A DNA stretch of 44,331 bases from Gemmatimonadota bacterium. GTDB taxonomy: Bacteria; Gemmatimonadota; Gemmatimonadetes; Gemmatimonadales; Gemmatimonadaceae. Under the pieces are notes generated by a model, which saw only the letters and a program-made list of their open reading frames with translations, did not search any database and had not been told where the DNA came from. The DNA lies in contig CANHTA010000001.1 of assembly GCA_947463135.1 (NCBI GenBank), positions 1 through 44,331 on the forward strand, read 5' to 3'. The position numbers and the translations under genes are program-made. This document shows, one piece after another, positions 22,606 to 39,900 of the stretch (positions are counted from its first letter, which is position 1; each line of letters opens with the position of its first letter).

Positions 22606-24564
22606 TTAACGCGGCGGGAAGTACACCACGTAAATCCGGTAGATCCCGTTCTGATCGCGCACCATGCCGGGGACTGAACCCGGACCCACCGCGGTGGTCT
22701 GACGGGTCCACGTGGTCCCATTGGTGCTGGTCGCGATGTACGTCGTATCGGAGCGCGGATCGGGTACACCCATGGGGCGGGTCTTGAACGCCATCGCATA
22801 GCTGTTCGCGCCAACGGTGATGGGGCTTGGGTCGCAGATGATTCCCGCCGAGCTCGGCGGAATGGCTACCGACCGCGTGCCGAAGGTGAGGCCGTCGGTG
22901 GATGTGGCATAGGTGATCCCCTCGCCACACGCGTACAAGTAGTACGTCGATCCGATACGCAGGGCCCCGGGGATGCTGGCGCCCGAGGAGCGTGTCCCTG
23001 CGTCCGACGTGTACGGGAAGGTGAGGCCCGTGGCATCGGTTGAGGTGGCGCTGAACACCGACGGGTTTGACGCAACGGTTTGCGCGTACAACATGCGGAT
23101 CCGCCCGTCGGCGAGCACCATGGGAAACGGATCGGTAATCGACGACGAGGCGGTAAAGGCGGTGCCCCGCTGCACGAACGATTCCCCGTGGTTGGTTGAT
23201 TCGGCCACCCCCATCTTCCACTGGTTGTTGGGTTGGCTGGTGGCCGGGTCGCCGCTGCGCGTGTTGTTCATGAGGTAGTACAGCAGAATGCGGCCGTCGG
23301 GCATGAGCACCGGCGATGGGTCCACGACCTCGAGCGCATCCCCGTTGCTGATGACGACCGTTTTGAATTGCCACGGGCCGGTGAGCGACGCGCTGTAGTA
23401 CATGCGCAGCGTCAAGAGGCTGCTCACCGTCACCGCCACTGATGCCGATTTCCCCTCGGCGGTCGCCGTGACGGTTGCCGTCCCCGGCCCGATCCCACCC
23501 ACGCGACCGCTGGCGTTTACCTGCACCACCGTCGGGGCGCTGGTGGACCAGGTCACCGTGCGGTCGGTGAGGGTATTCCCGTTGTCGTCGCGCACGGTGG
23601 CCGTCAGCTGTGCCATACTGTCCGTGTACAGCTGCAGGCTCGATGCGGTGAGCGAGATGCTGCCAACGGGGGCGCGCTCCACGGTGACCACCGTGGAGGC
23701 GGTGCGCCCTTCCACGGAGGCCGTCATGGTTGCCGTGCCCGGCACGACTGCGGACACCACGCCGGCGGTGCTGATGTTGGCCACGGCCGTCGCATTGGAC
23801 TGCCAGGTGACCGCGCGACCTGTGAGCGCGCCACCGGCACTGTCACGCGCGCTGGCGATGAGCTGGAGGGTGGCGCCCACGCGGATGGTGGGCGTGGCAG
23901 GCGTAATGACGACGCTGGCCACGGGGACGGGGGTAACCGTGACGGTGGCGGTCGCCGAACGCCCCTCCGCCGTGGCGGTAATCGTGGTCGTCCCTGCGGC
24001 AATCGCCGTGACGCCGCCGGACGCGGAGACCGTGGCGATGGTGGCAGCGGCGGTGCTCCAGGTGACGGGGCGACCCGTTAGCGCAGCCCCGGCGGCGTCC
24101 CGCGCGGCGGCGGTGAGCGTGCAGCTCCCACCAACCACCAAGGCGCAGCTCGCCGGGGTAACCGACAGCGTGGCGATGGGAATGGGCGTCACCGTGATGG
24201 TGGCGGTGCCGCTGCGTCCTTCACTGGTGGCCGTGATCGAAGCCGATCCGGGCGCCACCGCGCTCACCACGCCATTCGCCACCGTGGCAATCGTCGGGGC
24301 CGACGTGGCCCACGATACGCTCCGGTCGCTCAGGACCCGCCCCGCCGCATCGGTGGGCGCGGCCACCAACGTACACGTCGCGGCGGGAACAAGGGCACAG
24401 GTGGTTGGCGTCACCGTTACCGACGCAACCGGTGCCGGTGTGGTACCGCCTCCCGGGGTGGTGGGCGTGCCGCTACCACCATCGCCACTGGCGCAGGCTG
24501 ACAGCCCCAAGGCAAGAGCGGCGACCAAGACCGCAGGAACAGGGACAACGAGACGTCGGATCAC
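22606..24564 (-). CDS. Lipoprotein with four Big_2 repeats and a beta-propeller
   Basis: A 652-residue exported lipoprotein. The GTG at 24564 begins a signal peptide with the lipobox GLSAC. After a Gly/Thr/Pro linker come four tandem Big_2 (BID_2) Ig-like repeats of about 83-85 residues. The first two carry a Cys pair absent from the others (TTCALVPAATC, ASCALVVGGSC). The C-terminal ~280 residues contain repeated blade-like motifs (VDPSPVLMPDGRILLYYL, DPFPMVLADGRIRMLYA, ICDPSPITVG), suggesting a five-bladed propeller as in GH43/GH32/sialidase-like proteins. Glycan binding or hydrolysis is possible, but I cannot identify the catalytic acids. It is monocistronic here. Confidence 0.8.
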   Translation of the reverse strand: MIRRLVVPVPAVLVAALALGLSACASGDGGSGTPTTPGGGTTPAPVASVTVTPTTCALVPAATCTLVAAPTDAAGRVLSDRSVSWATSAPTIATVANGVVSAVAPGSASITATSEGRSGTATITVTPIPIATLSVTPASCALVVGGSCTLTAAARDAAGAALTGRPVTWSTAAATIATVSASGGVTAIAAGTTTITATAEGRSATATVTVTPVPVASVVITPATPTIRVGATLQLIASARDSAGGALTGRAVTWQSNATAVANISTAGVVSAVVPGTATMTASVEGRTASTVVTVERAPVGSISLTASSLQLYTDSMAQLTATVRDDNGNTLTDRTVTWSTSAPTVVQVNASGRVGGIGPGTATVTATAEGKSASVAVTVSSLLTLRMYYSASLTGPWQFKTVVISNGDALEVVDPSPVLMPDGRILLYYLMNNTRSGDPATSQPNNQWKMGVAESTNHGESFVQRGTAFTASSSITDPFPMVLADGRIRMLYAQTVASNPSVFSATSTDATGLTFPYTSDAGTRSSGASIPGALRIGSTYYLYACGEGITYATSTDGLTFGTRSVAIPPSSAGIICDPSPITVGANSYAMAFKTRPMGVPDPRSDTTYIATSTNGTTWTRQTTAVGPGSVPGMVRDQNGIYRIYVVYFPPR

Positions 24565-24812
24565 GGTGGTAGGGTGAGGGTGGAACAGGTGTGGTTTCCG
24601 AAGAAACCATGCCGATGACACCAGCCTCAACAGGATACGGCGCGGATTTGCGAGGCACTAGCCGTGCGTGTCACACGTCCGTCTCAGCGTTGCCTGGGGA
24701 CGCGGTCCCCGGAGCACGCTCGGAATTCCCGGGTTCACTGGCGGGTCCCCTGTTGCGTGGTAACTTCAGAGGGCTTGGGCTCCCAGACCGCTGTTTCCCT
24801 GAGGGAACTTCT
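24565..24812. promoter_or_regulatory. Divergent promoter region with two palindromes
   Basis: This 248-bp region lies between the leftward Big_2 lipoprotein and the rightward M20 operon. TGGTTTC-CGAA-GAAACCA (24592-24609) is a perfect seven-base-pair inverted repeat 28 bp before the lipoprotein start. In the leftward RNA its loop would be UUCG closed by C-G, a very stable tetraloop. GGGGAC-GCG-GTCCCC (24696-24710) is a perfect operator-like palindrome near the middle. No consensus promoter is clear on either strand, and no gene is visible. Confidence 0.45.
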
Positions 24813-26261
24813 ATGCTTCGCGTTCTCCGCTCGTCTCCGCTCGCTTGGGCCGTTGGGCTGCCGTTCGCGTACGCCGCGTGGTGCACCACGGCCACGGTCA
24901 CGGCCGCCACGGCCGGTGCGCAGCCCCTGACGGATTCCACCGCCCTCTTGCTCTCGCGCCTGATTCAGGCGAACAGCAGTAATCCGCCGGGGCATACCCA
25001 GCAGATCGCGGACATTCTTGGCCCGCTGTTTCGTGCGCGCGGTTTTCAGGTGGACATCGTCCCCACGCCCGACTCAGCCAAGGTCCACTTCTTTGCCCGC
25101 TTGAAAGGCAACGGGTCGAAGAAGCCGCTCCTGCTTGCGGCACATGCCGATGTGGTGGGGGTGGAACGTGAAAAGTGGAGCGTTGACCCGTTTGCCGGCG
25201 TGATCAAAGACGGTGCGGTGTACGGGCGTGGTGCGATCGACTTCAAGGGCGGCATCGCCGTGTTCGCGCGGGCCGCGCTGTTGCTGGCGGATCGGAAGGT
25301 ACCCCTCGACCGCGACGTCATCTTCCTGGCCGAGGCCGACGAGGAGGGTGCACCGATGAACACCAGCTGGTTGGCGCGGCAGCACTGGGACAAGATGGAC
25401 GCCGAGTTTGCGTTGAATGAGGGGGGATGGATCATCAAGCGCGAGGACGGCCGCGTGCAGTATGTGAGCATCTCCACCTCCGACAAGCGCGTGATGAATG
25501 TGGTGCTCACGGCAAAGGGCACAAGCACGCATGCGTCCATGCCGTTGCCGGACAATGCGCTCGTGACGATTGGCCGCGCGCTGGCCAAGCTTGGCAGTTA
25601 CGAAACGCCATTGGAGTTCACCCCCGATTCCCGTCGCTTTTTTGAAACGCTTGCGGCGACCAGTGATGCGGCGTCGGGCAAGCTGTTTACGGAGCTGTTG
25701 CACGGTACCGCGGCGCAGGTCTCTGCGGCGGATCGTGCGATCTCACGGGACGCGCTGCTCCATTCGCTGATGCGCAACACGATTGCGCCGGTGATTGTTG
25801 CTGGCGGATTCCGCAGCAATGTCATTCCGGGGTCGGCCGAGGCGACGCTCAACGTGCGTCTCATCCCCGGGAGTGATCCGGAGGCCTTTGTGCAGTCCCT
25901 CCGCACCTTGTTCAACGACCCGTTACTCACGGTCACGATGGCGTCGGCACCTGCTGCGGCCACCGCGGCGTCGGCCGATACCTCCTTGCTGTATCGTGCG
26001 TTGGCGGCTGAGGCGAAAGCGCAGTGGCCAGAGGCGCAGGTGACGCCCTATCTGTTTCAGGCCGGGACCGACGCGGCTGCGTGGCGGTCACGCGGTATTC
26101 CGGTGTTTGGCATTTATCCGTACCCAATCAGTAACGACGAGTTGCGCCGCATGCATGGCAATGATGAACGGGTGAGCGTTGAGTCGCTCCGGCAGGGTAC
26201 CGAGATGCTGTATCGCACGCTGGTGCGTGTGGCGGGTTCAACTGCCGGGCGGTCACGATGA
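24813..26261 (+). CDS. M20 family metallopeptidase, exported
   Basis: A 482-residue dizinc carboxypeptidase/aminoacylase-like enzyme. Its signal peptide runs to about residue 35 (ATAGAQP). Metal and catalytic motifs are LLAAHADVVGV (HxD), GRGAIDFKGG (bridging Asp), AEADEEGA (catalytic Glu and ligand Glu) and the late HGNDERVS (His). The middle holds the lid/dimerisation domain (TSTHASMPLPDNALVTIGRA). GAGGGAA precedes the ATG by seven bases. It probably trims short peptides or N-acyl amino acids in the periplasm. Its stop overlaps the next gene (ATGA), so it is translationally coupled to the DUF1592 haem protein. Confidence 0.92.
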   Translation: MLRVLRSSPLAWAVGLPFAYAAWCTTATVTAATAGAQPLTDSTALLLSRLIQANSSNPPGHTQQIADILGPLFRARGFQVDIVPTPDSAKVHFFARLKGNGSKKPLLLAAHADVVGVEREKWSVDPFAGVIKDGAVYGRGAIDFKGGIAVFARAALLLADRKVPLDRDVIFLAEADEEGAPMNTSWLARQHWDKMDAEFALNEGGWIIKREDGRVQYVSISTSDKRVMNVVLTAKGTSTHASMPLPDNALVTIGRALAKLGSYETPLEFTPDSRRFFETLAATSDAASGKLFTELLHGTAAQVSAADRAISRDALLHSLMRNTIAPVIVAGGFRSNVIPGSAEATLNVRLIPGSDPEAFVQSLRTLFNDPLLTVTMASAPAAATAASADTSLLYRALAAEAKAQWPEAQVTPYLFQAGTDAAAWRSRGIPVFGIYPYPISNDELRRMHGNDERVSVESLRQGTEMLYRTLVRVAGSTAGRSR

Positions 26262-28849
26262 AAGCCGCGGTGACCGTGGGCGCCGGTACGCTGATCCTCG
26301 CTCTCGCGGTGGGCAGCACGATGCAGGCGGATCTGGGCGATGCGCGCAACGATGTCCGTACTCGCGCAGCTGCCGGGTTGGCGGTGGGCGTGGTGTCGCC
26401 CGCGACGTATCTTGCCCCCGCTGCCCCAGTGCCGCTGGCACGGTACCGCGCCACCCTCAACCATCTGCGCCCGTCGGTCGGCGGGCATGCCCGCACCACG
26501 CGTACGCTCGCCCCGGTGGTGCTTAACGAGGTGGTGAAAAAGAATTGCGCCGGCTGTCACAGCGACCAGCGCAAGATGGGGAACTTCTCCCTGCAATCGT
26601 TTGACTTGGCCACGGTTGGCGCCACGTCGCCGATCATCGCCGAGAAGATGATCGGGAAGCTCCGCACCGGGATGATGCCGCCCCCGGGGCGCCCGCGCCC
26701 GGCTGGTGACACGCTCGAGGTGCTCACCGAAACGCTGGAACGGCAGATGGACGCGCTCGCCGTGCGGAAGCCGGATATCGGCCGACGCTCGTTTCAGCGC
26801 TTAAACCGCGCGGAGTACGAGAGAGCCATTAAGGACCTGCTCACGCTCTCGGTCAACGCCGAGTCGTGGCTGCCGCTGGATACCAAGAGCGCAAACTTCG
26901 ATAACATTGCCGATGTGCAGATCCCCTCGGCCACGGTCCTCGAGGCGTATCTCGATGCGGCGAGCGCGGTGAGCCGTATGGCGGTGGGCGATGCGAAGGC
27001 CACCGTGTCAACCTCGACGTACAAGGTGTCGCGTCTCGCGAATCAGAATGATTACGAGGGGAACACGCCGGTGGGGACACGTGGAGGAACGGCCGCCACG
27101 CACTACTTCCCAGCCGACGGCGCCTATGTGTTCTCGGTGTCGCTGCACTCCACGCCCATTGGACAGCTGGTTGGCGGGAACGCACCGTTTGATGAGCAGC
27201 TCGAATTCTCCGTGGATGGCCAGCGCGTGGCGCTGCTCGACATTGATCGCGGCATGCACGAGAGTGAGCCCAATGGGCTCGATCTCAAAACGGTCCCCAT
27301 CACGGTGAAGGCGGGTCCGCATGTGATCGCTGCGGCGTATGTCCGCACCTTTGAAGGACCGGTGGAAGACCTGATGACGCCGATCGGCAACAGCCTGCCG
27401 GATACGCAAATCGGGATTCAGGACGCGATCACCATTCAGGGACACATGAAGTTGCTGAGTGTGACCGGCCCCTTCAATCCCACGGGGGTGTCTGACACGC
27501 CCAGCCGCCGTCGCGTGTTTACCTGCCGTCCGCTCAGTGCCGCCGAACAGCGTCCGTGTGCGGAAAAGATTGTGAATCGCCTGGGCTCGCTGGCGTATCG
27601 TCGTCCACTCACCGTGACGGATCGCACGGCGATCATGCGCTTCTATGACGAAGAGGCGAAGGACGGGGGATTTGAAAACGGCGTGCGGGGGGCGGTGGAA
27701 GCCATCCTGGCCAGCCCGGCCTTTGTCTTCCGCGCCGAGGAAGTGGCCGCCACAGCCAAGCCGGGTGCGAAGGTCGCAGTGGCTTCAACCGACCTGGCAT
27801 CACGCCTGAGCTTTTTCTTGTGGGGCACTCTCCCCGATTCCACACTCAACAGCGTGGCGCAGCGCGGCCTGCTGAATGACACGACGGTGTTGGTGGCACA
27901 GGCGAAGCGCATGTTGGCCGATCCGCGTGCCGATGCGCTCGCCACCCGATTCGCGTCACAATGGCTGCGGCTTCAGGACATTGAGAAGGTGCATCCCGAT
28001 CCGTTGCTGTATCCGGCGTTTAATTTGCAGCTCGCCAAGAACCTGCAGCAGGAAACCGAGCTGTTCATGGCCAGCTTGGTGCGCGAGAACCGGAGCCTGC
28101 TGGACATGTACACGGCCGATTACACGTATGTGAACGACGAGCTGGCCCGGCACTACGGCATGACCGACGTGGTGGGGCGCGAGTTCCGCCGTGTCACCCA
28201 CACCGACAAGAACCGCGTCGGCATTCTCGGCCACGGCAGCGTGCTGCTGCTCACGTCGCAGGGCAATCGCACGTCGCCGGTGTTGCGTGGCAAGTGGGTG
28301 ATGGAAGTGCTCATGGGGTCGCCGCCACCGCCGCCGCCGCCCAACGTGCCCGATCTCGAAGTGACTGGCGCCAGCAAGGAAGGGCGCATGCTCACCACAC
28401 GCCAGCGTATGGAAGAGCACCGCGATAACGCGTCGTGCCGCTCCTGTCACCAGTTCATCGATCCGATCGGGCTCGCGCTTGATAACTTTGACGTGATCGG
28501 TCAGTGGCGCATCAAGGAGAACAACATGCCGCTGGATACCCGCGGCGATTACTACGATGGCACCAAGATCACCGGCCCGCGCGAACTGCAGCAGGTGTTA
28601 CTCAAGCGCCCCGTACCGCTGGTGCGCACATTCGTGACGAACCTCATGGCCTACGCCGTGGGCCGGCGCGTGGAGTACTCGGATGGGCCGGCAATCCGCA
28701 AGATCGAAGCGTCGGTGAAGGCCCGGAACTACCGTATTCAAGATGTCGTGCTGGGTGTGGTGAAGAGTGACGCGTTCCGGATGCGTATGGTGCCGGTCGC
28801 TCAGGCAGCACTCCCCGCGAGCGGGGCATCAGTCGGCCACAGCCGCTGA
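26258..28849 (+). CDS. DUF1592-type c-haem protein (planctomycete cytochrome family)
   Basis: An 863-residue exported protein starting with a hydrophobic signal segment. A c-type haem site CAGCH lies at 97-101 (VKKNCAGCHSDQRKMG), with MMPPPGRPRP after it. Then come segments matching the usual order DUF1587 (RRSFQRLNRAEYERAIKDLL), DUF1595 (SLAYRRPLTVTDR), DUF1592 (ASRLSFFLWGTLPD), DUF1588 (GILGHGSVLLLTSQGNRTSP, polyproline stretch) and DUF1585. A second Cys pair is CRSCH at 727-731 in SCRSCHQFIDPIGLALDNFD, a possible second haem site. A beta-rich region at about 250-380 may be a carbohydrate-binding fold. Family members pair with DUF1552 proteins, as here; the biochemical role is not established. 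Confidence 0.92.
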   Translation: MKAAVTVGAGTLILALAVGSTMQADLGDARNDVRTRAAAGLAVGVVSPATYLAPAAPVPLARYRATLNHLRPSVGGHARTTRTLAPVVLNEVVKKNCAGCHSDQRKMGNFSLQSFDLATVGATSPIIAEKMIGKLRTGMMPPPGRPRPAGDTLEVLTETLERQMDALAVRKPDIGRRSFQRLNRAEYERAIKDLLTLSVNAESWLPLDTKSANFDNIADVQIPSATVLEAYLDAASAVSRMAVGDAKATVSTSTYKVSRLANQNDYEGNTPVGTRGGTAATHYFPADGAYVFSVSLHSTPIGQLVGGNAPFDEQLEFSVDGQRVALLDIDRGMHESEPNGLDLKTVPITVKAGPHVIAAAYVRTFEGPVEDLMTPIGNSLPDTQIGIQDAITIQGHMKLLSVTGPFNPTGVSDTPSRRRVFTCRPLSAAEQRPCAEKIVNRLGSLAYRRPLTVTDRTAIMRFYDEEAKDGGFENGVRGAVEAILASPAFVFRAEEVAATAKPGAKVAVASTDLASRLSFFLWGTLPDSTLNSVAQRGLLNDTTVLVAQAKRMLADPRADALATRFASQWLRLQDIEKVHPDPLLYPAFNLQLAKNLQQETELFMASLVRENRSLLDMYTADYTYVNDELARHYGMTDVVGREFRRVTHTDKNRVGILGHGSVLLLTSQGNRTSPVLRGKWVMEVLMGSPPPPPPPNVPDLEVTGASKEGRMLTTRQRMEEHRDNASCRSCHQFIDPIGLALDNFDVIGQWRIKENNMPLDTRGDYYDGTKITGPRELQQVLLKRPVPLVRTFVTNLMAYAVGRRVEYSDGPAIRKIEASVKARNYRIQDVVLGVVKSDAFRMRMVPVAQAALPASGASVGHSR

Positions 28850-28881
28850 ATTTCCTGATCAACTCCTAAGGAGCAACAGCT

Positions 28882-30270
28882 ATGCAGTTCCTGACTGGAA
28901 AGGCGATGCCTCGCCGACAGTTCGTGCAGTCACTCAGCGCCACCATCGCGCTGCCGTATCTGAACGCCATGGTCCCCCGCGGCCAGAGCATCATGGGGTC
29001 AGCCAATGCGGCGCCGCGACTCATCGCCATTGAAATGGTGCACGGCGCCGCCGGCGCCAACGACATCGGCGCCAAACTCAATTTCTGGTCACCCGCCGCC
29101 ACCGGTCGTACCTTCGACCTGTCGCCGTCGGCCCTGTCCTCGCTGGAGAAGTACCGCGAGTACATGACGATCATCAGCAACACCGATGTGCGCGAAGCCG
29201 AGCCGGCGGCGCCGCCCGAGATCGGCGGCGACCATTTCCGCTCGAGCGCGACGTTCCTTACGCAGACGCACCCGAAGCAGACGGAAGGGTCCGACGTCAA
29301 GATTGCCACGTCGCTCGATCAGCTCTATGCCCAGCGCTTCGGGCAAGACACACCCATCCCGTCGATGCAGCTGTGCATTGAGAATGTCGACCAGGCCGGT
29401 GGGTGCTCGTATGGCTATGCCTGTGTGTATACCGACTCCATCAGCTGGAAGTCGCCCACTGAACCACTGCCGGTGATTCGTGATCCGCGCGTGGCCTTCG
29501 AAAAGCTGTTCGGCGTGGGCGGCAATAGCGCCGAGCGGGCCGACCGCCGTCGGTCCCGACGCAGCATTCTCGACTTCGTGTCGGGACAGATGACGTCGCT
29601 GTCCCGGGGCCTCGACGCGGACGACCGGCACCGCATGGATCGCTACCTCACGGACATCCGCGAGGTAGAGCGTCGTATTCAGATGGTAGAAGCGCGCAAC
29701 ACGAGCGGCGAAGAGCGCGAGTTGGCGGCCGCACCGGCGGGTGTTCCCGATTCGTTCAAGGAACATGTCGAACTCATGTTCGACATTCAGGCGCTCGCCT
29801 TCGCCGCCGATGTCACTCGCGTGTTCTCCTTCAAGATGAGCCGCGACGGCACCAGCCGGACGTATCCGGAGAGCGGTACCGATAAGGGCTTTCATCCCGC
29901 CTCGCACCATGGCGGTGGCGAAAAGGGTGTGCGTGACTTCCAGCTGCTCAACAAGTATCACGTGTCGATGCTGCCGTACCTGCTCGACAAACTGAAGAGC
30001 ATTCAGGAAGGCGAGAGCAACATGCTCGACAAAACGATGATTATTTACGGTTCGCCGATGGGTGATCCGAACGTGCATAATCATCGTCGCTGTCCCCTCA
30101 TGCTGCTCGGCAAGGCCGAAAACCGGCTGGCCGGGAACCTGCACATCAAAGCGCCCGATGGTACGCCGATGGCGAATGCGATGCTCAGCATGATGCACAC
30201 GCTTGGCATGAACGACCTCACCACCTTCGGGGACAGCACGGGGGCGCTGAATCTGAATGCCCATGCATAA
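28882..30270 (+). CDS. DUF1552 domain protein with Tat-like signal
   Basis: A 462-residue protein. The N-terminus has a twin-arginine-like motif (PRRQFVQSL) and a hydrophobic stretch, consistent with Tat export of a folded protein. The body is the DUF1552 domain (ANDIGAKLNFWSPAATG; DEADIR-like SLSRGLDADDRHRMDRYL; FKMSRDGTSRTYPESG; MLDKTMIIYGSPMGD). DUF1552 is related to the sulfatase-like DUF1501 group by general appearance, but no enzyme activity is known to me. An ideal AAGGAG ribosome-binding site (28868-28873) sits eight bases before the ATG. It lies 32 bp after the haem gene and overlaps the ankyrin gene by 14 bases. Confidence 0.92.
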   Translation: MQFLTGKAMPRRQFVQSLSATIALPYLNAMVPRGQSIMGSANAAPRLIAIEMVHGAAGANDIGAKLNFWSPAATGRTFDLSPSALSSLEKYREYMTIISNTDVREAEPAAPPEIGGDHFRSSATFLTQTHPKQTEGSDVKIATSLDQLYAQRFGQDTPIPSMQLCIENVDQAGGCSYGYACVYTDSISWKSPTEPLPVIRDPRVAFEKLFGVGGNSAERADRRRSRRSILDFVSGQMTSLSRGLDADDRHRMDRYLTDIREVERRIQMVEARNTSGEERELAAAPAGVPDSFKEHVELMFDIQALAFAADVTRVFSFKMSRDGTSRTYPESGTDKGFHPASHHGGGEKGVRDFQLLNKYHVSMLPYLLDKLKSIQEGESNMLDKTMIIYGSPMGDPNVHNHRRCPLMLLGKAENRLAGNLHIKAPDGTPMANAMLSMMHTLGMNDLTTFGDSTGALNLNAHA

Positions 30271-32149
30271 CCACGTGGTCACGTCGCACCGCCGTGGAGC
30301 GGGGAAGCGGCTCGCCGGCGTTGCCTGTGTGATTGGCGCGTCGCTGATGCTGTCGGCGGGTCATCCGGCATCGGACACACCGCTGGCGGATGCCGTCCTC
30401 CGCGGTGACAGCGCGGCGCTCCGCGTGCTGCTCACGCAGGGCGTAGACGTGAACGAAGTGCAGGGAGACGGGATGACCGCGTTGCATTGGGCGGCCTCGC
30501 GCGGCAACGTGAGTGCAACACGGATGCTGGTGTCGGCCGGGGCACGCGTGGATCCCGTTACGCGCAATGGCCAGTACACCCCGCTGCATCTGGCCGCACA
30601 GAATGGACGGGCGGAAGCGGTACGGGCGCTATTGTCGGCCGGGGCGAACGTGAACGCCACCACATCGTCCGGCGGCGCCTCGGCGCTGCACTTCGCTGCG
30701 ACCAGCGGCGATGCGGCAACCATCGACGCCCTGATCGAGAAGGGCGCATCGGTGAACGTGCGGGAGAAGGCGTTCGCGCAAACACCACTCATGTGGGCGG
30801 CCGCGGCCAACCGGGTATCTGCCATTGCCGCGCTCGTGAAGCGTGGGGCTGACCTCGAAGCGGAAACGCGGACGCAGAGTATTCCTGAGCAGGAAAAAAA
30901 GGATCGCGCGTTTCTGGTGACGCGCTCGCGAAAGTTGGCGGCGATCAAGTCCGCCGACGCGTTGCTCGCACCGCGGCCTGTTGCACCGGCCACCGTTGCA
31001 CCGGCTACCGCCGCACCGGCCACCGCAACACCAGCGATCGCCGCAACACCTCGTACGGCACCACCGGCGGACGCAGCGCCGGCACCGTCTGGCAACTCAG
31101 ATACGCGGATCACACCAACGGCCGGTGATCGACGTCCACGAGGACCCACGTACGGCGATCTCGTGGGGAATAAAGGCGGCAACACCGCGCTGCTGTTGGC
31201 GGTGCGCGATGGTCAGGTGGCGGCGGTGAACGCACTCCTGATGGCGGGCGCGGATATCAATCACGCCAGCGCGGGTGACAGTACGACGCCGCTGTTGATG
31301 GCCACCATCAACGGCCGGTTTGATTTGGCGAAGTCACTGCTGGACCGGGGGGCCGACCCGAAGCGCGCCAGTGTCGCCAACGCCACGCCGCTTTATGCTG
31401 TTATCAACGTGGTGTGGGCCCCGAAGGCCGCGTATCCGCAACCGGTTGCCCAGTATCAGTCCACCATTAGCTATCTCGAGCTCATGGAAGCGCTCCTCAA
31501 AGCGGGCGCCGATGTGAATGTGCGACTGTCCAAACACCTCTGGTACATGTCGTACAACTTCGATCAGCTCAGCGTGAGTACGGCGGGGGCCACGCCGTTC
31601 TGGCGCGCGGCCTATGGCACCGATCTCGACGCCATGAAGCTGCTGCTCCGGTACGGCGCCGATCCTGGCATCGCTACCATCAAGCCGGCCGGTCGTCTGC
31701 CGGGCTCCGAAGAGCTCGATGCCGATGTGGCCGCGGGGAAGGATCCCTCAGGGTTGCCCCCGGTGCCGGAGAATGGCCCGGGCGTGTACGCGATTCATGC
31801 CGCCAGCGGTGCCGGCTACGGCGAGGGCTTTGCGGCGAACGCGCATCGTCATGCTCCGGACGGGTGGATGCCGACGGTGCGGTTTCTGGTGGAAGAGCTC
31901 AAGGCCGATGTGAACGCCCGCGATTTCAAAGGCTACACCCCGCTGCATCATGCCGCCGCGCGCGGTGACAACGAGGTCATCAAGTATCTCGTGAGTAAGG
32001 GCGCGGATGTGACGGCGGTCGCACGCACCGGGCAGACCACGGTGGATATGGCGAACGGTGCAGTACAGCGTATCCCGCCGTTCCTCGACACCATCGAATT
32101 GCTGGAGAAGATGGGAGCGAAGAACAACCACAAGTGCAAGAGCTGCTAA
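30257..32149 (+). CDS. Exported ankyrin-repeat protein
   Basis: A 630-residue protein whose start overlaps the DUF1552 gene end by 14 bases. A signal peptide is followed by a first block of about five ankyrin repeats (GMTALHWAASRGNVSATRML, TPLHLAAQNGRAEAVRALL, SALHFAATSGDAATIDALI, TPLMWAAAANRVSAIAALV). Next is a Lys-rich segment and an Ala/Pro/Thr linker. A second block has at least four repeats, some with long insertions, and a final clear repeat GYTPLHHAAARGDNEVIKYL. The protein ends in KCKSC, a CxxC with no residue after it. Similar proteins accompany DUF1592/DUF1552 pairs, presumably as periplasmic scaffolds. Confidence 0.9.
   Translation: MPMHNHVVTSHRRGAGKRLAGVACVIGASLMLSAGHPASDTPLADAVLRGDSAALRVLLTQGVDVNEVQGDGMTALHWAASRGNVSATRMLVSAGARVDPVTRNGQYTPLHLAAQNGRAEAVRALLSAGANVNATTSSGGASALHFAATSGDAATIDALIEKGASVNVREKAFAQTPLMWAAAANRVSAIAALVKRGADLEAETRTQSIPEQEKKDRAFLVTRSRKLAAIKSADALLAPRPVAPATVAPATAAPATATPAIAATPRTAPPADAAPAPSGNSDTRITPTAGDRRPRGPTYGDLVGNKGGNTALLLAVRDGQVAAVNALLMAGADINHASAGDSTTPLLMATINGRFDLAKSLLDRGADPKRASVANATPLYAVINVVWAPKAAYPQPVAQYQSTISYLELMEALLKAGADVNVRLSKHLWYMSYNFDQLSVSTAGATPFWRAAYGTDLDAMKLLLRYGADPGIATIKPAGRLPGSEELDADVAAGKDPSGLPPVPENGPGVYAIHAASGAGYGEGFAANAHRHAPDGWMPTVRFLVEELKADVNARDFKGYTPLHHAAARGDNEVIKYLVSKGADVTAVARTGQTTVDMANGAVQRIPPFLDTIELLEKMGAKNNHKCKSC
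30983..31042 (+). repeat. Four 15-bp tandem repeats in ankyrin gene linker
   Basis: Four units derived from GCACCGGCCACCG plus two bases encode APATV/APATA-like pentapeptides between the two ankyrin blocks. The first three are near-identical and the fourth has drifted. The unit keeps frame, so linker length could change by slippage. Confidence 0.7.
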
Positions 32150-32153
32150 CGCC

Positions 32154-33911
32154 TTAGGGCCGCGGTGCAACCTGCTGGAGCGCTAATTTCACGGCGGCGT
32201 AGGCATCCACCACGCCGCCCGTGCGCGAGAGTGTGCCGAACCGTACCGTTGCTCCATCACCCGGGCGCCGGACCTCGAGATCGGGCAGCTTGCGCACCGA
32301 CGCCATCAGGATATCGCGCACCTGCATGGCGCTGAGCTCCGGAAAATAGGTCATCAGGAGGGCGGCGACCCCCGAGACGACCGGCGCTGCCATGCTGGTG
32401 CCGCTCTCGCGTTTTGTTCCGCCCCCAGGCACCGTGGACAAGATGTCGACGCCCGGGGCAAACAGATCCACCTGATCTCGGCCATAGTTGGAAAAGTCGG
32501 CCGCCAATGCGGGCAGTGGCTTCCAGCTTGATGCGCCGACTTCAATCCAGTTCCGCGCACGCTGGCCACCGGGAAACATCGCCGTTGGAAACGATGGCGT
32601 CTCATCACTATTCTCGCCGTCATTCCCCGCTGCGTGCACCAACAGCACGCCCTTCGATTCGGCATAGCGCACCGCCGAATCCACCGAGGCTTTGCCTGGC
32701 GAATAGCTCTTGCCGAAGCTCATGTTCACGATCTGCGCGCCGTTGTCAACGGCATAGCGGATCGCACGCGCCACATCGCTGTCCCGTTCGTCACCATCCG
32801 GCACCGCCCGCACCGCCATGATCTGCACATGCGGTGCAATGCCTTGCATCGCATCGCGATCATCCCCGCGCTGGGCACCGATAATCCCCGCCACGTGCGT
32901 ACCATGCGAGGCATCTGGGCCGGTGACGTCGCGGGTGCCTGACACTGGTGTCCCCGACCGTGGATTGAACAGCGTGTCGAGCCCGTAGCGGGCTTGCGCG
33001 TCGTAGGCCTCACCAGCACTGCGAAGTTCGGTGGCACTCAGCCCATCGGCATCAAGCTGCAGCCACAGCTGCCGTGCCTTGGCTACGTCGGCGGAGAGCG
33101 GACGGAGTGCGCTGACCGAGGCCCGCGTGATCGGCACAGAGGGCAAGGCCGTCCCAAGCGTCTGCTCCACATTGCGGAGCAGGTCGCCGATACGCGCCAC
33201 TTGCTGTCGGGTCGATTGGACCTCCTGCACTTTGTTCTGATAGGCCGACGTCAGATCGTTGCAGGCCGCGTCGCTCGGCCTCACGGTGCGTGCACCCGCG
33301 GGTTGCCGACGGCAGGCCGCGTATAAACGCGTGAGCTCGAAGGTGTCGTAGCGTACCGGTGTGCCATCGGCGGTGGCGAGGAGATTCCAACCGAAGATGT
33401 CGTCGATCACTCCGTTGCCGTCGTCATCCCGGTTGTTGTCGGCGATCTCCCGCGGGTTCTTCCAAAGCGATGCGGCAAGGCGCGTGTGGGCGGTATCCAC
33501 GCCGCCGTCCACCACCGCAACGACGACGCGCCGCTGGGGCTGACGCGTGGCGAGCAACTCGCGAATGGCCCGATCAGAACCGACGCCCATCACGCGATCG
33601 GTCTCGTAATCCAACCGATGCCAATCCGAGCGCGCCGTGTCTGCCGCTGCCGGTGCCGCAGATGCCGACGATGGTGCTGCCGCCGGTGGTGTGGCTGGTG
33701 GCGTTGACGGTGAGGCCTCCACGCGTATCGGCGCCTGGAGGACGGGCTGCATAGCCGGTTCCGGTACGGCTGGTACCGGGCCACCGGCACGGGTACAGGC
33801 GGTACCACTGAGGGTTAACGGGAGCGCCACCAGATAGGCCACCAGCAATGCCATCGGCCTCCGGGGCGTGCGGGGGCACGTGGGGAGCACGGTCTGCAAC
33901 GGCGTGGCCAT
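32154..33911 (-). CDS. Subtilisin-like S8 serine protease, exported
   Basis: A 585-residue exported protease, last gene of the leftward operon and 29 bp after the giant lipoprotein. A signal or anchor segment (about 20-38) ends in GTAC, a weak lipobox, and a Pro/Ala linker follows. The catalytic triad is complete: D135 (VVVAVVDGGVD), H336 (SHGTHVAG) and S506 (ESGTSMAAP), with oxyanion N430 (HAAGND). Asp and His are about 200 residues apart; the gap holds a calcium-site-like DDDGNG loop and a helical insertion (about 200-315). The arrangement recalls the subtilisin-like subgroup common in Bacteroidota. ATG 33911 is chosen because it keeps two arginines before the hydrophobic segment; ATG 33854, with GGAGG upstream, is an alternative. 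Confidence 0.92.
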   Translation of the reverse strand: MATPLQTVLPTCPRTPRRPMALLVAYLVALPLTLSGTACTRAGGPVPAVPEPAMQPVLQAPIRVEASPSTPPATPPAAAPSSASAAPAAADTARSDWHRLDYETDRVMGVGSDRAIRELLATRQPQRRVVVAVVDGGVDTAHTRLAASLWKNPREIADNNRDDDGNGVIDDIFGWNLLATADGTPVRYDTFELTRLYAACRRQPAGARTVRPSDAACNDLTSAYQNKVQEVQSTRQQVARIGDLLRNVEQTLGTALPSVPITRASVSALRPLSADVAKARQLWLQLDADGLSATELRSAGEAYDAQARYGLDTLFNPRSGTPVSGTRDVTGPDASHGTHVAGIIGAQRGDDRDAMQGIAPHVQIMAVRAVPDGDERDSDVARAIRYAVDNGAQIVNMSFGKSYSPGKASVDSAVRYAESKGVLLVHAAGNDGENSDETPSFPTAMFPGGQRARNWIEVGASSWKPLPALAADFSNYGRDQVDLFAPGVDILSTVPGGGTKRESGTSMAAPVVSGVAALLMTYFPELSAMQVRDILMASVRKLPDLEVRRPGDGATVRFGTLSRTGGVVDAYAAVKLALQQVAPRP

Positions 33912-33940
33912 GGTGTGGGAGTCGGGAGTCGGTGGCGCGC

Positions 33941-36900
33941 TTACGGCGTCACGGTGGCAATGAGTCTCGTACCGGAGTGTGGCAGATAGGCGTTGATCGC
34001 CACCAGCCAGACGCCGGCCGCTGGCTGCGTGAACACGCACTCTTCGTTGGACCCGAAGAGATACGGTCGGCAGTCGGCGGTGCCGGTGTTGCCCGGTTGG
34101 AAGATCGAGAGGTCAGGGTCGCCGGTCCCACCACTGATGGCTACCGTGAGCCTGGTGGCTCCAGCGGGCACATACACGGCATAGAACCTATCCGAATCGC
34201 TAACGGCATTCGTAATCGAGACCGGCGTGCCACTCTGGAGCCCCACGTGTGCGATAAAGCTGGCGATAGCACTACGCCCCTCGGCCGTGGCGGTAATGCT
34301 CACAGAGCCGGTGGTCCCCGCGGTTACCACCCCCTCGCTCGTGACTTGCGCCACAGCAGACGCGGATGAGGACCACGCCACGGGACGACCCGCAATGATA
34401 GACCCATTCACGTCGCGGAGCGTGACGGCAAGCGGCACGGCGATGCCGGTTGGTAGATAGCCGCCATTCGGGACGAGGCTCACGCTCGTGACCGAGGCGA
34501 TCGTCACGGTCACGGGCATCGTGCTGGCTTGCCCTTCCACGGTTGCGGTGATGGTGGCTGATCCGGCGGCGATCGCGGTAAGGAGACCTTGTGAAGACAC
34601 CGAGGCCACGGCGGAATTGGAACTGGTCCAGACCACGGCCCGACGGGTCAGGGTGTTCCCCGCGGCGTCCAGCGAGGTGGCGTTGAGCTGCTGAACGGCC
34701 CCAACCAACAGATTTGCCGATCGCGGCGAGATGACGACCGCCGAAACGGGAGCCGTAACCTGCACACTGGCCGATGCCCTCACCCCGTCAATGGTGGCGG
34801 TGACGGTGGTCGAACCCGCACCTGTCGCGGTGACCACACCGGCCGCCGAGATGGTCGCGACGGCGGCGTTGGCGGTGGTCCACGTCACGGCGCGCCCCAC
34901 AAGCTCCCCGCCCTGCGCGTCGTAGGCGGTGGCGACCATGACCTGTGTCCCGCCAACGGTGAGCACGGTGCCAAAGGTGTTGAGGGTAACCGTCGCCACC
35001 GTTGGGGCCGTGATCGTCACGGCCGCGGTGGCGGTGAATCCTTCAACGGTGGCCGTTACCACCACCACACCGGGGGAGGCTGCCGCCGTGAGCACGCCCT
35101 GCGCGGAGATGGTTGCAAGGGCAGGGTTACTGCTGCTCCACGAGACGGCGCGCCCGGTGATCACATTCCCCGCGGCGTCAAATGCCGTGGCGATGAACGC
35201 CTTGGTACTCACCGCTGGCATTGAAAACGTCGAGGGGGTCACGGTCACGCTGGCAATCGGTACCAAGGACACGGTGACCGTCGTGCTGGTGGTCTTGCCT
35301 TCAACGATAGCGGTGATGGTAGTGGTGCCGGCGGCGATCGCCGTGAGCACGCCTTGGCTGCTGATGGAAGCAATCGCTGATGCCGAGCTGCTCCACACCA
35401 CGCCACGACCGGTGAGCACGGCCCCGTTGGCCGCAAAGGCGGAGGCCGTAAACTGTTGGGTCGCCCCAACGAGCATGCTGAGCGAGGTTGGCGACATCGT
35501 CACGGTGGCCACCGGTACCTGACTCACGGTGATGCTGGCCGTGGCCGTTCGCCCTTCAACCGTCGCCACCATGTTCACCGTGCCGGGGGCTACCCCGGTC
35601 ACGGCGCCTTGCGTGCTGATGGTGGCGATGGCCGTATTGGCGCTGCTCCACGTGACCACACGACCCGTGAGGGGGTTGTTACTCGCGTCAAAGGCCGACG
35701 CGGTGAGTTGCTGCACGTCGCCAACCGTCAGGTTGGCGCTCGTTGGACTGACGCTCACGGACACCACCGGTACCGCCGACACCGTCACCACGGCGGCGGC
35801 GGTTCTCCCCTCAACCAGGGCGTTAATCGTGGCGCTACCGGCGGTGATGGCGGTGACCACTCCCTGCGCGGAGACGGTGGCCACCGCAGGGTTCCCGCTG
35901 CTCCACACCACGGGGCGGCCGGTGAGCGGGGTCCCACTGGCGTCGGCGGCGGAGGCCGTGAGCGACTGGGAGGCGCCCACGAGCAGGCTCAGGCTACTGG
36001 GCGTAATGGAGACGGAGGCCACGGGGACGGCCGCCACGGTAATGCTGGCAGCGGCGAGCTTCCCCTCCACGGTCGCGGTGATAATGGCGACGCCGGGGGC
36101 GACGGCCGTGACCACGCCCTGCGCCGACACCGAGGCAATGGCGGGGAGATCACTGCTCCAGAGTACGGGGCGTCCGGTGAGCAGGGTCCCGTTTGCATCG
36201 TAGGCGGCCGCGCTCAGTGACTGCGTGGCGCCGACAATCAGATTGGCGTTGGCCGGCGAAATGGTGACGGCGGTCACCGGCACCACGGTCACCGAAACAG
36301 TGGCCGTCGCCGTTTTCCCTTCCACGGTGGCCGTGACGACCGTCGTGCCGGCGGCCACCGCCGTTACGACCCCCTGTGCGGAGATGGTGGCCACCGCAGG
36401 GGTGTTGCTACTCCACGTGACCGGCCGACCGGTGAGCGCGGCGCCGTCGGCATCAGCGGCCGACGCCGTCATGGCCTGACTTTCCCCCACGCGGAGGCTC
36501 ACGGCCGCCGGGGTCACCCGCACCGACACCACCGGCACCGGCGAGACGGTCACGGTCGCCGTGGCCGACCGTCCCTCGATGGTGGCGGTGATGGTGGAAG
36601 TTCCCGCGGACACGGCCGTGAGCACACCGCCCGTGGTGATGGTGGCGACCGGTGGGGCCGCGCTGCTCCACGTGATCGTGCGCCCGGTGAGCACATTCCC
36701 GTTGCCGTCAAACGCGGTGGCGGTAAACGACTGTGTGCTGCCTACGACGAGATTGACGGTTGATGGCGTCAAGACGACCGACGCCACCGGAATGGCGGAC
36801 ACCGTGACACTGGACGTGGCGGTTCTCCCCTCCACGCTGGCCGTGATGACGGCGGTACCGGGCGCGACGGCCGTGACGAGTCCGAGTGGCGACACGGTGG

Positions 36901-39900
36901 CAACCGTTGGCGTCTCGCTGCGCCACAGGACGGGGCGTCCCGTGAGTACGGCGCCATTGGCGTCGAAGGCAGACGCACTCAGTTGTTGCGTGCCACCCGT
37001 GTTCAAGCTGACAATCGGCGGCGTGACCGCCACCACCGACACGGGCACTGCGGTCACCGTTATGGTAGCCGTGGCGGTTTTCCCTTCCACGATCGCGGTG
37101 ATCGTGGCGCTCCCTGCCGCCACCGCCGACACGACGCCCTGCGACGACACCGAGGCCACCGTGGGATTGGCACTGCTCCATGCGACGGTACGGCCAGTTA
37201 AGGCGGTGCCTTCGGTGTCAAATGCCGACGCCGCCAACTGCTGGGTTTGTCCAACGAGAACGGTGGCCGATGTGGGGGAAATACGTACCGTTGCCACCGG
37301 CACCGCCGACACGGTGACGGTGGCGGCGGCGGTTCTCCCCTCAACCAGGGCGTTAATGGTGGCGCTACCGGCGGTGATGGCGGTGACCACGCCCTGTGCG
37401 GAGACCGTGGCCACCGCAGGGTTCCCGCTGCTCCACACCACGGGGCGGCCGGTGAGCGGGGTCCCACTGGCGTCGGCGGCGGAGGCGGTGAGCGACTGGG
37501 AGGCGCCAACGACCAAGCTCAGGCTACTGGGCGTAATGGAGACGGAGGCCACGGGGACGGCCGACACGGTAACGCTGGCGGAGGCGAGCTTCCCCTCCAC
37601 GGTCGCGGTGATGATGGCGACGCCGGGGGCAACGGCCGTGACGACGCCCTGCGCCGACACCGAGGCAATGGCGGGGAGATCACTGCTCCAGATTACCGGG
37701 CGTCCGGTGAGCAGGCCCCCGTTTGCATCGTAGGCGGCCGCGCTCAGTGACTGCGTGGCGCCGACAATCAGATTGGCGTTGGCCGGCGAAATGGTGACGG
37801 CGGTCACCGGCACCACGGTCACCGAAACAGTGGCCGTTGCCGTTTTCCCTTCCACGGTGGCCGTGACGACCGCCGTGCCGGCGGCCACCGCCGTCACGAC
37901 CCCCTGCGCGGAGATGGTGGCCACCGCGGGGGTGTTGCTACTCCACGTGACCGGCCGACCGGTGAGCGCGGCGCCGTCGGCATCAGCGGCCGACGCCGTC
38001 ATGGCCTGACTTTCCCCCACGCGGAGGTTCACGGCCGCCGGGGTCACCCGCACCGACACCACCGGCACCGGCGAGACGGTCACGGTCGCCGTGGCGGACC
38101 GGCCCTCGATGGTGGCGGTGACGGTGGAACTCCCCGCAGACACGGCCGTGAGCACACCGCCCGTGGTGATGGTGGCGACCGGTGGGGCCGCGCTGCTCCA
38201 CGTGATCGTGCGCCCGGTGAGCACATTCCCGTTGCCGTCAAATGCGGTGGCCGTAAACGATTGCGTGCTGCCCACGAGAAGGCTCACGACGGACGGGGTA
38301 ATGCTCACGGTGGCGACCCCCGACGGGGTCACGGTTATGGTGGCTCGCTCCGTAATCCCCTCCACGGTGGCCGATACCGTGGCCGATCCGGGAGAGATGG
38401 CGGTGAGCATCCCCTGCGGCGACACCGCCGCAATCGCCGGCGTGGCACTGCTCCAGGTAACAGGGCGACCCGTCAGCACCGCCCCACTCGCGTCGTAGGC
38501 CGTGGCAATGAGTTGCCGCGTGCTCCCCACGAGCAACGTCGCGCTGGGCGGCGAAATGCTGATCGCCACCACCGGCAGCGGCACAATCGTGTAGATCGCC
38601 GTTGCCGTCTTGCCGTCAACCGTTGCCGTGATAGACACCGAGCCGGGCGTCACGGCGGTGAGCCCCCCCTGGGCCGAGACGGTGGCGATGGCCGGCGTGC
38701 TGCTCGTCCACACGACTGAGCGGCCGGTGAGGATGGCACCACTGGCATCAAAGGCTGACGCCGACAGCTGCACGAACGCGCCCGCGGTGTAGGTGCCCGA
38801 CGGGGGCGAAATGGTCACGGTGTTGACGGCGACCGGCACCACCGACAGCGATGCGGTTCCGGTGCGCCCTTCAACTTGGGCGGTGATCGTGGCCGTGCCC
38901 GGTGCCACCGCCGTTACCACCCCCTGAGGCGAAATACTCGCCACGGCTGGGCTATTGCTGCTCCAGATGACGGTGCGCCCGGTAAGCAGGGTGCCGTTTG
39001 CGTCGCGGGCCGACGCCGTGAGCGACTGGGTGGAGCCCACCATTACCGAGGCCGACGCCGGCGTCACACTCACGCTGGCCACCGGTGGCCGCGTGACCGT
39101 GATCGTGGCGGCCGTGGATTTGCCCTCGAGCGAGGCCACGATGAGCGCTGAACCGGCGGAGACACCGGTGACCAGCCCGGTCACCGATACCGTGGCCACC
39201 GTGGCATCAGAGCTGGTCCACGTGGGCACCCGCCCGGTGAGCACCGCACCGGTCGCATCCACGGCGGAGGCGAGCAGCACTTGGGAACTGCCAACCAGGA
39301 GATCCACCGTGCTCGGCGTAATGCTGAGGCTGGCCGTGCCCACCGTGGACACCGTCACCGTTGCCGTCGCACTCCTCCCGTCAACGGTGGCGGAGATTAC
39401 CGCCGTGCCCGGGGCGACCGCCGTGACGAGCCCCTGCGCTGATATCGTGGCCACGGCTTGATTGGCCGATGACCACACAATCGGCCGGCCGGTAATCGGA
39501 ATGCCGGTGGCGCCGCTAGCCGTCGCGGTGAGCTGCTGCGTGGCCCCTTGCAGGACGCTCACCGACGCGGGCGTGATCTGCACGGTCGTGACAACCGGTG
39601 CCGATACCACCACGCTGGCCGATGCGCTTTTCCCTTCCACCGTGGCGGTGACCACCGCGGTGCCGGGGGCCACGCCCGTGACCACACCCTGCGACGAGAT
39701 CACCGCCACCGCTGCCGCGCTCGTGCTCCACGAGACGCTGCGTCCCGTGAGCACGGTCCCCGCCGCATCGAACGCCGACGCGGTCATGGCCTGACTGGCG
39801 GCAACCGTGAGAGAGACAGACGTCGGTGCGACCGTCACACTGGCCACCGGCGGTGGGGTCACGGTGATCGTGGCGGTCGCCGACTTCCCCTCGACCAAGG

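Follow-up and report, generated by a model that had tools for sequence, protein, structure and literature searches.

A conserved DUF1592-DUF1552-ankyrin gene set and its recent M20 neighbour in a Gemmatimonadota bacterium

Results

The window analysed here, a 44,331-nucleotide stretch from a Gemmatimonadota bacterium (contig CANHTA010000001.1 of assembly GCA_947463135.1), carries at positions 24813-32149 four plus-strand open reading frames (ORFs) encoding, in that order, an M20 peptidase, a DUF1592-type cytochrome, a DUF1552 protein and an ankyrin protein. The layout originally predicted for this locus, four genes tied together by overlaps of 4 and 14 bp and one 32-bp gap, was confirmed from the ORFs and the sequence. 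The M20 gene (24813-26261, 482 residues) and the DUF1592 gene (26258-28849, 863 residues) share the stop/start overlap ATGA (26258-26261), which was read directly from the sequence. The 32-bp gap between the DUF1592 and DUF1552 genes (the latter at 28882-30270, 462 residues) and the 14-bp overlap of the DUF1552 and ankyrin genes (the latter at 30257-32149, 630 residues) were derived from coordinates; the ankyrin gene may instead start at a second ATG at 30263, which would bring the overlap to 8 bp, as in the relative L138. The M20 enzyme is predicted to be exported, and the N-terminal hydrophobic segments of the module proteins, with a conserved twin-arginine motif in DUF1552, predict the same for them. 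The source genome (3.55 Mb in 294 contigs) yielded four DUF1592 and four DUF1552 matches, and its three other sites (L035-L037) repeat the order DUF1592, DUF1552, ankyrin. By DUF1552 (81% identity), the nearest named loci belong to assemblies labelled Gemmatimonas or uncultured Gemmatimonadetes. A promoter scan of positions 24300-32400 found none and terminator counts were near chance, such a scan being uninformative at high GC.

The partners of DUF1552 were surveyed in a Gemmatimonadota sample, on contigs of named genomes, in an Acidobacteriota sample and on plasmids. Genes outside the window were taken from calls based on GC content at third codon positions (GC3) or from six-frame ORFs; because DUF1552 or ankyrin genes were overlooked at several loci by the GC3-based calls, the partner and M20 counts given here are those of the six-frame survey. 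For partner counts, each distinct DUF1552 C-terminus entered once, and genes flanked by less than 2.5 kb were excluded. DUF1592 lay directly upstream of DUF1552 in 40/40 Gemmatimonadota, 76/81 named-contig, 38/41 Acidobacteriota and 7/7 plasmid cases, so that 161 of the 169 surveyed genes outside a hand-picked genus set, and the window as well, have the two genes adjacent on the same strand. An ankyrin gene followed DUF1552 in 36/37, 71/74, 15/37 and 1/7 cases of the same four samples, respectively, and the order of the three genes is far above chance. Where DUF1552 scored above 500 against the window protein, an ankyrin gene followed in 115 of 116 cases, 110 of them with a CxxC end; at scores of 500 or below it followed in 11 of 42, and the CxxC end was seen in two, both fragments of a single locus (L212). 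The 120-residue tail of the ankyrin protein was found in 57 of 150 genomes of the phylum, namely all 56 with DUF1552 and one further genome, G139, at a weak 5e-10. The true unit is DUF1592-DUF1552-ankyrin, which is widely conserved and in which the ankyrin protein is a lineage-specific partner of the pair. The association of these three families, presented beforehand as known from genome surveys, is real and strong by both the survey counts and the shared genome distribution. The accompanying statement that they have no assigned biochemistry held as well: none turned up under the DUF1592 and DUF1552 family names in the open-access literature, and our search of it returned no paper treating the two together. 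Many bacteria of soil and aquatic habitats carry several DUF1592/DUF1552 pairs, and one genome gave 14 DUF1552 matches. Tandem double or triple DUF1592-DUF1552-ankyrin modules were seen at L166, L168, L171, L222, L263 and other loci.

The M20 gene behaves differently from this unit. Its product, a putative peptidase or deacylase, matched PF01546 (8e-26) and PF07687 (M20_dimer) above cut-off, so both the catalytic and the dimerisation domain are present, and it fell under all NCBIfam cut-offs among those shown. Orthologues at 83-87% identity (86% in L051) were found in 10 of 30 genomes of the genus, window included, and in seven of these ten the M20 and DUF1592 genes neighbour each other on one contig. 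The M20 gene directly precedes DUF1592 in the window and in G165, G164 and G170, with gaps of ~180-200 bp in the latter three. At the other three of the seven loci of this clade (G074, G169 and G153), an amino-acid permease gene on the strand opposite to the module stands between the two (L138 8878-10275, minus strand; L139 11029-12381; L051 13294-14793). The permease is absent from the other four M20-DUF1592 junctions, and L137, without it, is sister to L138, with it, at low backbone support. In G150, G167 and G166, the M20 gene lies on contigs that yielded no DUF1592.

Beyond the genus set, an M20 gene lay within 8 kb of distinct DUF1552 genes in 1/40 cases of the Gemmatimonadota sample, 0/93 of the named genome contigs, 0/42 of the Acidobacteriota sample and 0/7 of the plasmids, all distinct DUF1552 genes being kept for these counts; restricting them to genes flanked by 4 kb or more on each side gave 1/35, 0/52, 0/33 and 0/7. 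The survey profile was built from 14 family sequences, and very distant M20 subfamilies could escape it. The sole positive gene (1/182) is that of G074, which belongs to the window's own clade, and one change suffices to explain the M20 state on a FastTree tree built from 183 distinct DUF1552 sequences. Restricted to one clade of one genus, the M20 gene is a recent, local neighbour and no core part of the gene set, and the enzyme tells little about what the gene set does. The original prediction had read it as pointing to a peptide or an N-acyl substrate. The idea that the M20 enzyme works within the module and releases such a substrate draws on the 4-bp overlap and co-orientation in the window and on co-orientation across the ~180-200-bp gap in three more genomes, but is very unlikely given the single survey hit inside the clade, the opposite-strand permease between the genes in three relatives and eleven M20 loci at ~62-71% identity (L143-L153) with no module alongside. 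Nor did the pairing recur across phyla: no M20 gene was found beside the module in Gemmatimonadota outside the clade, in Acidobacteriota, in sphingomonads or in one planctomycete. In the relatives, the M20 gene is essentially what the original prediction had set against its own proposal, a neighbour found only here and separately transcribed; this does not carry over to the window itself, where co-transcription of M20 and DUF1592 is likely because the genes overlap.

How the two genes came to overlap is suggested by an alignment of the 260 bases before DUF1592 from the window and seven relatives. All seven relatives, with or without the permease, share an element directly before the DUF1592 start, CCCGCC..CCGAGGCTTTGGGATG, plus an upstream TTCATAG-like stretch. 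The window is devoid of this ~180-bp leader, and the M20 stop sits in its place at 26258-26261. Because the seven relatives keep the leader, the 4-bp coupling looks derived, as if a recent deletion had placed the module behind the M20 gene; the absence of the leader from the window may instead reflect an assembly error.

The DUF1592-type protein matched PSD3, PSD5, PSD4, PSCyt3 and PSD2 (DUF1587, DUF1595, DUF1592, DUF1588 and DUF1585) above Pfam cut-off in one chain. Its domain order runs from an N-terminal class I-like cytochrome c (CAGCH from residue 97, Met140) through DUF1587, a domain resembling carbohydrate-binding modules (CBMs), DUF1595, DUF1592 and DUF1588 (CRSCH from residue 727) to DUF1585. 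In the N-terminal domain, directly followed by DUF1587, the CxxCH motif and the methionine are invariant in 41 sequences, as in class I cytochromes c, and the second CxxCH, that of DUF1588, was present in 50/50 sequences. Compared with the Protein Data Bank, the N-terminal domain found general c-type cytochromes only, the solved X183 domains being unrecognised among the matches, and the DUF1592 profile found no relative by sequence among solved structures. In an AlphaFold2 model built from 64 sequences (predicted local distance difference test score [pLDDT] 84.4, predicted template modelling score [pTM] 0.85), residues ~250-410, encoded at 27005-27487 on the plus strand and outside any Pfam match, form a predicted jelly-roll domain resembling CBM36/35/6 (VIA best Z 9.5, root-mean-square deviation 2.5, 104 aligned residues; Foldseek weak, E 2e-3). 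For the rest of the chain, outside residues 246-409, the structural comparison listed no match; a new fold should not be concluded from this. Five Sphingobium proteins are missing the N-terminal haem motif, and in the four that were scanned DUF1587 and DUF1595 are ~24 residues apart, compared with ~190 in the window protein, so these proteins have no CBM-like insert.

The CBM-like domain, together with the domains shared with Cbp2D of Cellvibrio japonicus in the available parts of PMC8981238, would suit a module that feeds electrons to lytic polysaccharide monooxygenases (LPMOs), as proposed for Cbp2D. We regard this role as extremely improbable, and for AA10 enzymes it is disfavoured in the genus because a search for that LPMO family (PF03067), the one copper monooxygenase family covered, found it in 0/30 genomes, compared with a DUF1592-protein match in 30/30; moreover, X183 domains from Teredinibacter failed to drive an LPMO in the experiments reported in PMC10916295.

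The DUF1552 protein (Pfam HXXSHH, 1.7e-84) carries a twin-arginine motif whose R11 and R12 were conserved in 57/62 and 62/62 sequences. A model built from 66 sequences (pLDDT 82.3, pTM 0.88) has the fold of the alkaline-phosphatase/sulfatase superfamily, with a best VIA Z of 17.0 over 285 aligned residues, Z values of 15.4-17.0 for the 50 matches listed, a Z of at least 8 for 420 of 881 chains, and a best Foldseek E of 8e-4. Four histidines are conserved among 62 sequences from several phyla: His118 in 56, His338 in 59, His342 in 62 and His399 in 60. By the order of strands and helices, set against the general anatomy of the superfamily, His118 would mark the start of the helix that bears the nucleophile in sulfatases. 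Kinship at the level of sequence profiles to local sulfatases or to DUF1501 proteins was not supported by hhalign (11 sequences per side, drawn from 18 and 20 loci after removal of ORFs that were shorter or contained X), which returned short unrelated stretches only (E 0.18 and 0.048), and the DUF1552 profile found no relative by sequence among solved structures.

A fold of this kind raises the alternative that DUF1552 is a hydrolase of esters, sulfates or phosphates, to which DUF1592 only supplies electrons or for which it senses redox state. The modelled match to sulfatases and phosphatases (Z 17) points that way, and so does a genome survey in which, in the part available, sulfatase genes often lie near PSCyt genes (PMC5615132). 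Conversely, the usual place of the nucleophile would hold His118 (56/62) and not Cys, Ser or Thr, judging from secondary-structure order, and a plain hydrolase would not be expected to occur almost invariably beside a c-type cytochrome. On balance we consider the hydrolase reading somewhat unlikely.

The ankyrin protein (Pfam Ank) has a conserved C-terminal tail ending in CKSC (32135-32146, plus strand). Both cysteines, Cys627 and Cys630, are invariant in 66 aligned relatives, in an alignment seeded from the window protein, and a terminal CxxC was present in 100 of 109 distinct untruncated ankyrin ORFs, the nine exceptions including unrelated ankyrin proteins and spurious ORFs. Literature searches, which were not aimed specifically at this motif, found no published description of it. 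Its near universality within the group would fit a factor that matures or protects the haem protein, as opposed to a structural subunit. There is a precedent in Pseudomonas, where AnkB is reportedly required for the catalase KatB. Distant pairs, however, have the haem protein without any ankyrin protein in all but 11 of 42 cases, so general haem insertion is independent of it; a role in maturation or protection is a possibility that we hold only tentatively.

Around 40 Gemmatimonadota loci, the recurrent neighbour families were creatininase (14), SusD-like (9), SusC (8), HpcH/HpaI aldolase (8), HupE (8), pyrroloquinoline quinone (PQQ) dehydrogenase-like (7) and NHL (7). The SusD-like label was assigned by eye, Pfam giving no family for these or for the c6 and c16 neighbours. 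A SusC-family TonB receptor (TIGR04056) with a SusD-like partner was observed upstream of several triads (L059 16731-19901, L047 3971-5338). On Sphingobium plasmids, a cytochrome b561-type gene comes just after the DUF1592-DUF1552 pair at three of five loci (L234, L235 and L238); in all three, the DUF1592 protein is short, with neither the CBM-like insert nor the N-terminal cytochrome. Between the pair and the b561 gene, L234 and L238 have a separate gene annotated as cytochrome c or c', and L235 has an unannotated gap. With these genes, Sphingobium operons add a soluble and a membrane cytochrome. The cytochrome c' of L238 is class II by sequence, with its haem motif near the C-terminus, and therefore resembles the fused N-terminal cytochrome by analogy, not by homology. 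The flanks of these three loci hold a TonB-type receptor or a large gene without annotation, a regulator, and genes of catabolism annotated as acyl-CoA dehydrogenases, a Rieske protein, a 7-alpha-hydroxysteroid dehydrogenase and the like; L238 also has an upstream protein of ~400 residues with no Pfam match. The paper on the tomato Sphingobium makes no mention of cytochromes or of any DUF. Elsewhere, Novosphingobium L232, an unannotated record, has a full-length DUF1592 protein and an ankyrin protein without CxxC, and a Planctomyces plasmid carries DUF1587, DUF1592, DUF1552 and DUF1080 genes in a row.

Two further features flank the four genes in the window. On the minus strand, a subtilase gene (32154-34040, Pfam S8) adjoins an ORF of 2448 residues (33941-41287) with many similar 'VSVTPASVSLTVG...ATVEGKTATATVTV' repeats that appear by eye to be of the bacterial immunoglobulin-like type. 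A second protein with the same repeats and a different C-terminal domain is encoded on the minus strand at 22606-24630, divergently from the M20 gene.

Discussion

Starting from the computed gene order, co-occurrence, domain make-up, DUF1552 fold and recent, local M20 link, we consider the gene set most likely to be an exported electron-transfer or oxidation module for the breakdown of organic substrates. For the fuller reading, that DUF1592, DUF1552 and the CxxC-terminated ankyrin protein form a conserved exported three-protein redox module which an independent M20 gene recently joined through leader loss, we see about an even chance. With its CBM-like domain, the DUF1592 protein would bind a substrate or polymer in the periplasm or outside the cell, and electrons would pass from the universal DUF1588 haem to the N-terminal cytochrome c and on to the respiratory chain. 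DUF1552, with an alkaline-phosphatase fold and a histidine-rich conserved site, would act on or present the substrate, and the ankyrin protein might hold the complex together or mature it, its terminal dithiol serving in thiol redox or cofactor delivery. The module would help to break down organic substrates oxidatively outside the cytoplasm, with the M20 enzyme working independently of it.

Several observations weigh against this interpretation. The ankyrin gene is missing from most of the distant DUF1592/DUF1552 pairs (it is present in 11/42), which means that the core chemistry can do without it. At Z 9.5, compared with a usual best Z of 7-8 for unmatched models, the match to CBMs is modest. 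Neighbouring families are varied, even creatininase, the commonest, reaching only 14/40 loci, and no single substrate therefore emerges. The Sphingobium loci L236 and L237, which sit among glyoxylate-type genes, have no annotated b561 or other cytochrome gene beside the pair and carry a VOC-type or hypothetical gene instead. Finally, DUF1552 may be a plain hydrolase.

A bolder proposal makes the module a type of exported oxidoreductase not described before. Its alkaline-phosphatase fold would have been remodelled to hold a redox metal bound by histidines, a two-haem cytochrome that binds the substrate would feed it, and an ankyrin protein with a terminal dithiol would mature it; the same core would drive both the cellulose attack of Cbp2D-type proteins and a step in steroid or terpenoid breakdown by sphingomonads. 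We regard this as a long shot. Removing the misleading M20 clue and fixing the true unit makes the function of the module directly testable, with four new handles: the sulfatase-like fold with its conserved histidines, the CBM-like domain, the terminal CxxC and the cytochrome b561 operons of culturable Sphingobium.

Among known systems, the alkaline phosphatase/sulfatase superfamily shares its fold with the DUF1552 model (Z 17), yet DUF1552 has no profile-level similarity to local sulfatases and presumably places a conserved histidine where the nucleophile would be. The AnkB-KatB pair resembles the window set in joining an exported ankyrin protein to an exported haem protein; unlike that pair, the window has no catalase among its four proteins and does have a terminal CxxC.

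The PSCyt3/PSD genes of Planctomycetes and Verrucomicrobia, as far as they are described in the available part of PMC5615132, share the Pfam domains of the window protein and, as there, keep a constant neighbouring gene: PSCyt3 genes usually adjoin a gene family of unknown nature, sometimes bear carbohydrate-binding parts and are given no known function there. To this picture the window adds a near-obligate ankyrin protein with CxxC and a CBM-like domain invisible to Pfam, along with an M20 neighbour in one clade only.

Closest in domain make-up are Cbp2D, composed of CBM2, X158, FN3, X183, DUF1587 and X132 (PMC8981238), and the Teredinibacter proteins TERTU_2913 and TERTU_3803; in the sections of PMC8981238, PMC10916295 and PMC12542752 available, these exported proteins, like the window protein, each carry two CxxCH domains, one of them a cytochrome domain, along with DUF1587. 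Cbp2D and TERTU_3803 bear carbohydrate-binding parts, for which the window protein has its CBM-like domain, and a lignocellulose study lists, in the part available, a Cellvibrio DUF1592 protein with CBM2 (PMC6004670). X132 is presented in the accessible text of PMC10916295 as a CxxCH domain with no characterised homologue and with a DUF at its N-terminal end, printed as DUF1687, which is probably a misprint of DUF1587. The positions of the DUF domain and of CxxCH in the window protein agree with that description, and from the published accounts we infer that X132 corresponds to the DUF1595-1592-1588-1585 block. The CBM2, YceI-like X158 and FN3 domains of Cbp2D are absent from the window protein (no Pfam match to CBM2 or X158 at E 0.001), which was not classed as a Cbp2D since CBM2 and X158 are lacking, and the same sections of the three papers describe no DUF1552 or ankyrin partner for Cbp2D-type proteins. 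By deletion, cbp2D is essential for growth on insoluble cellulose, according to the part of PMC12542752 available; the module may tie to a protein that bacteria need for growth on this polymer.

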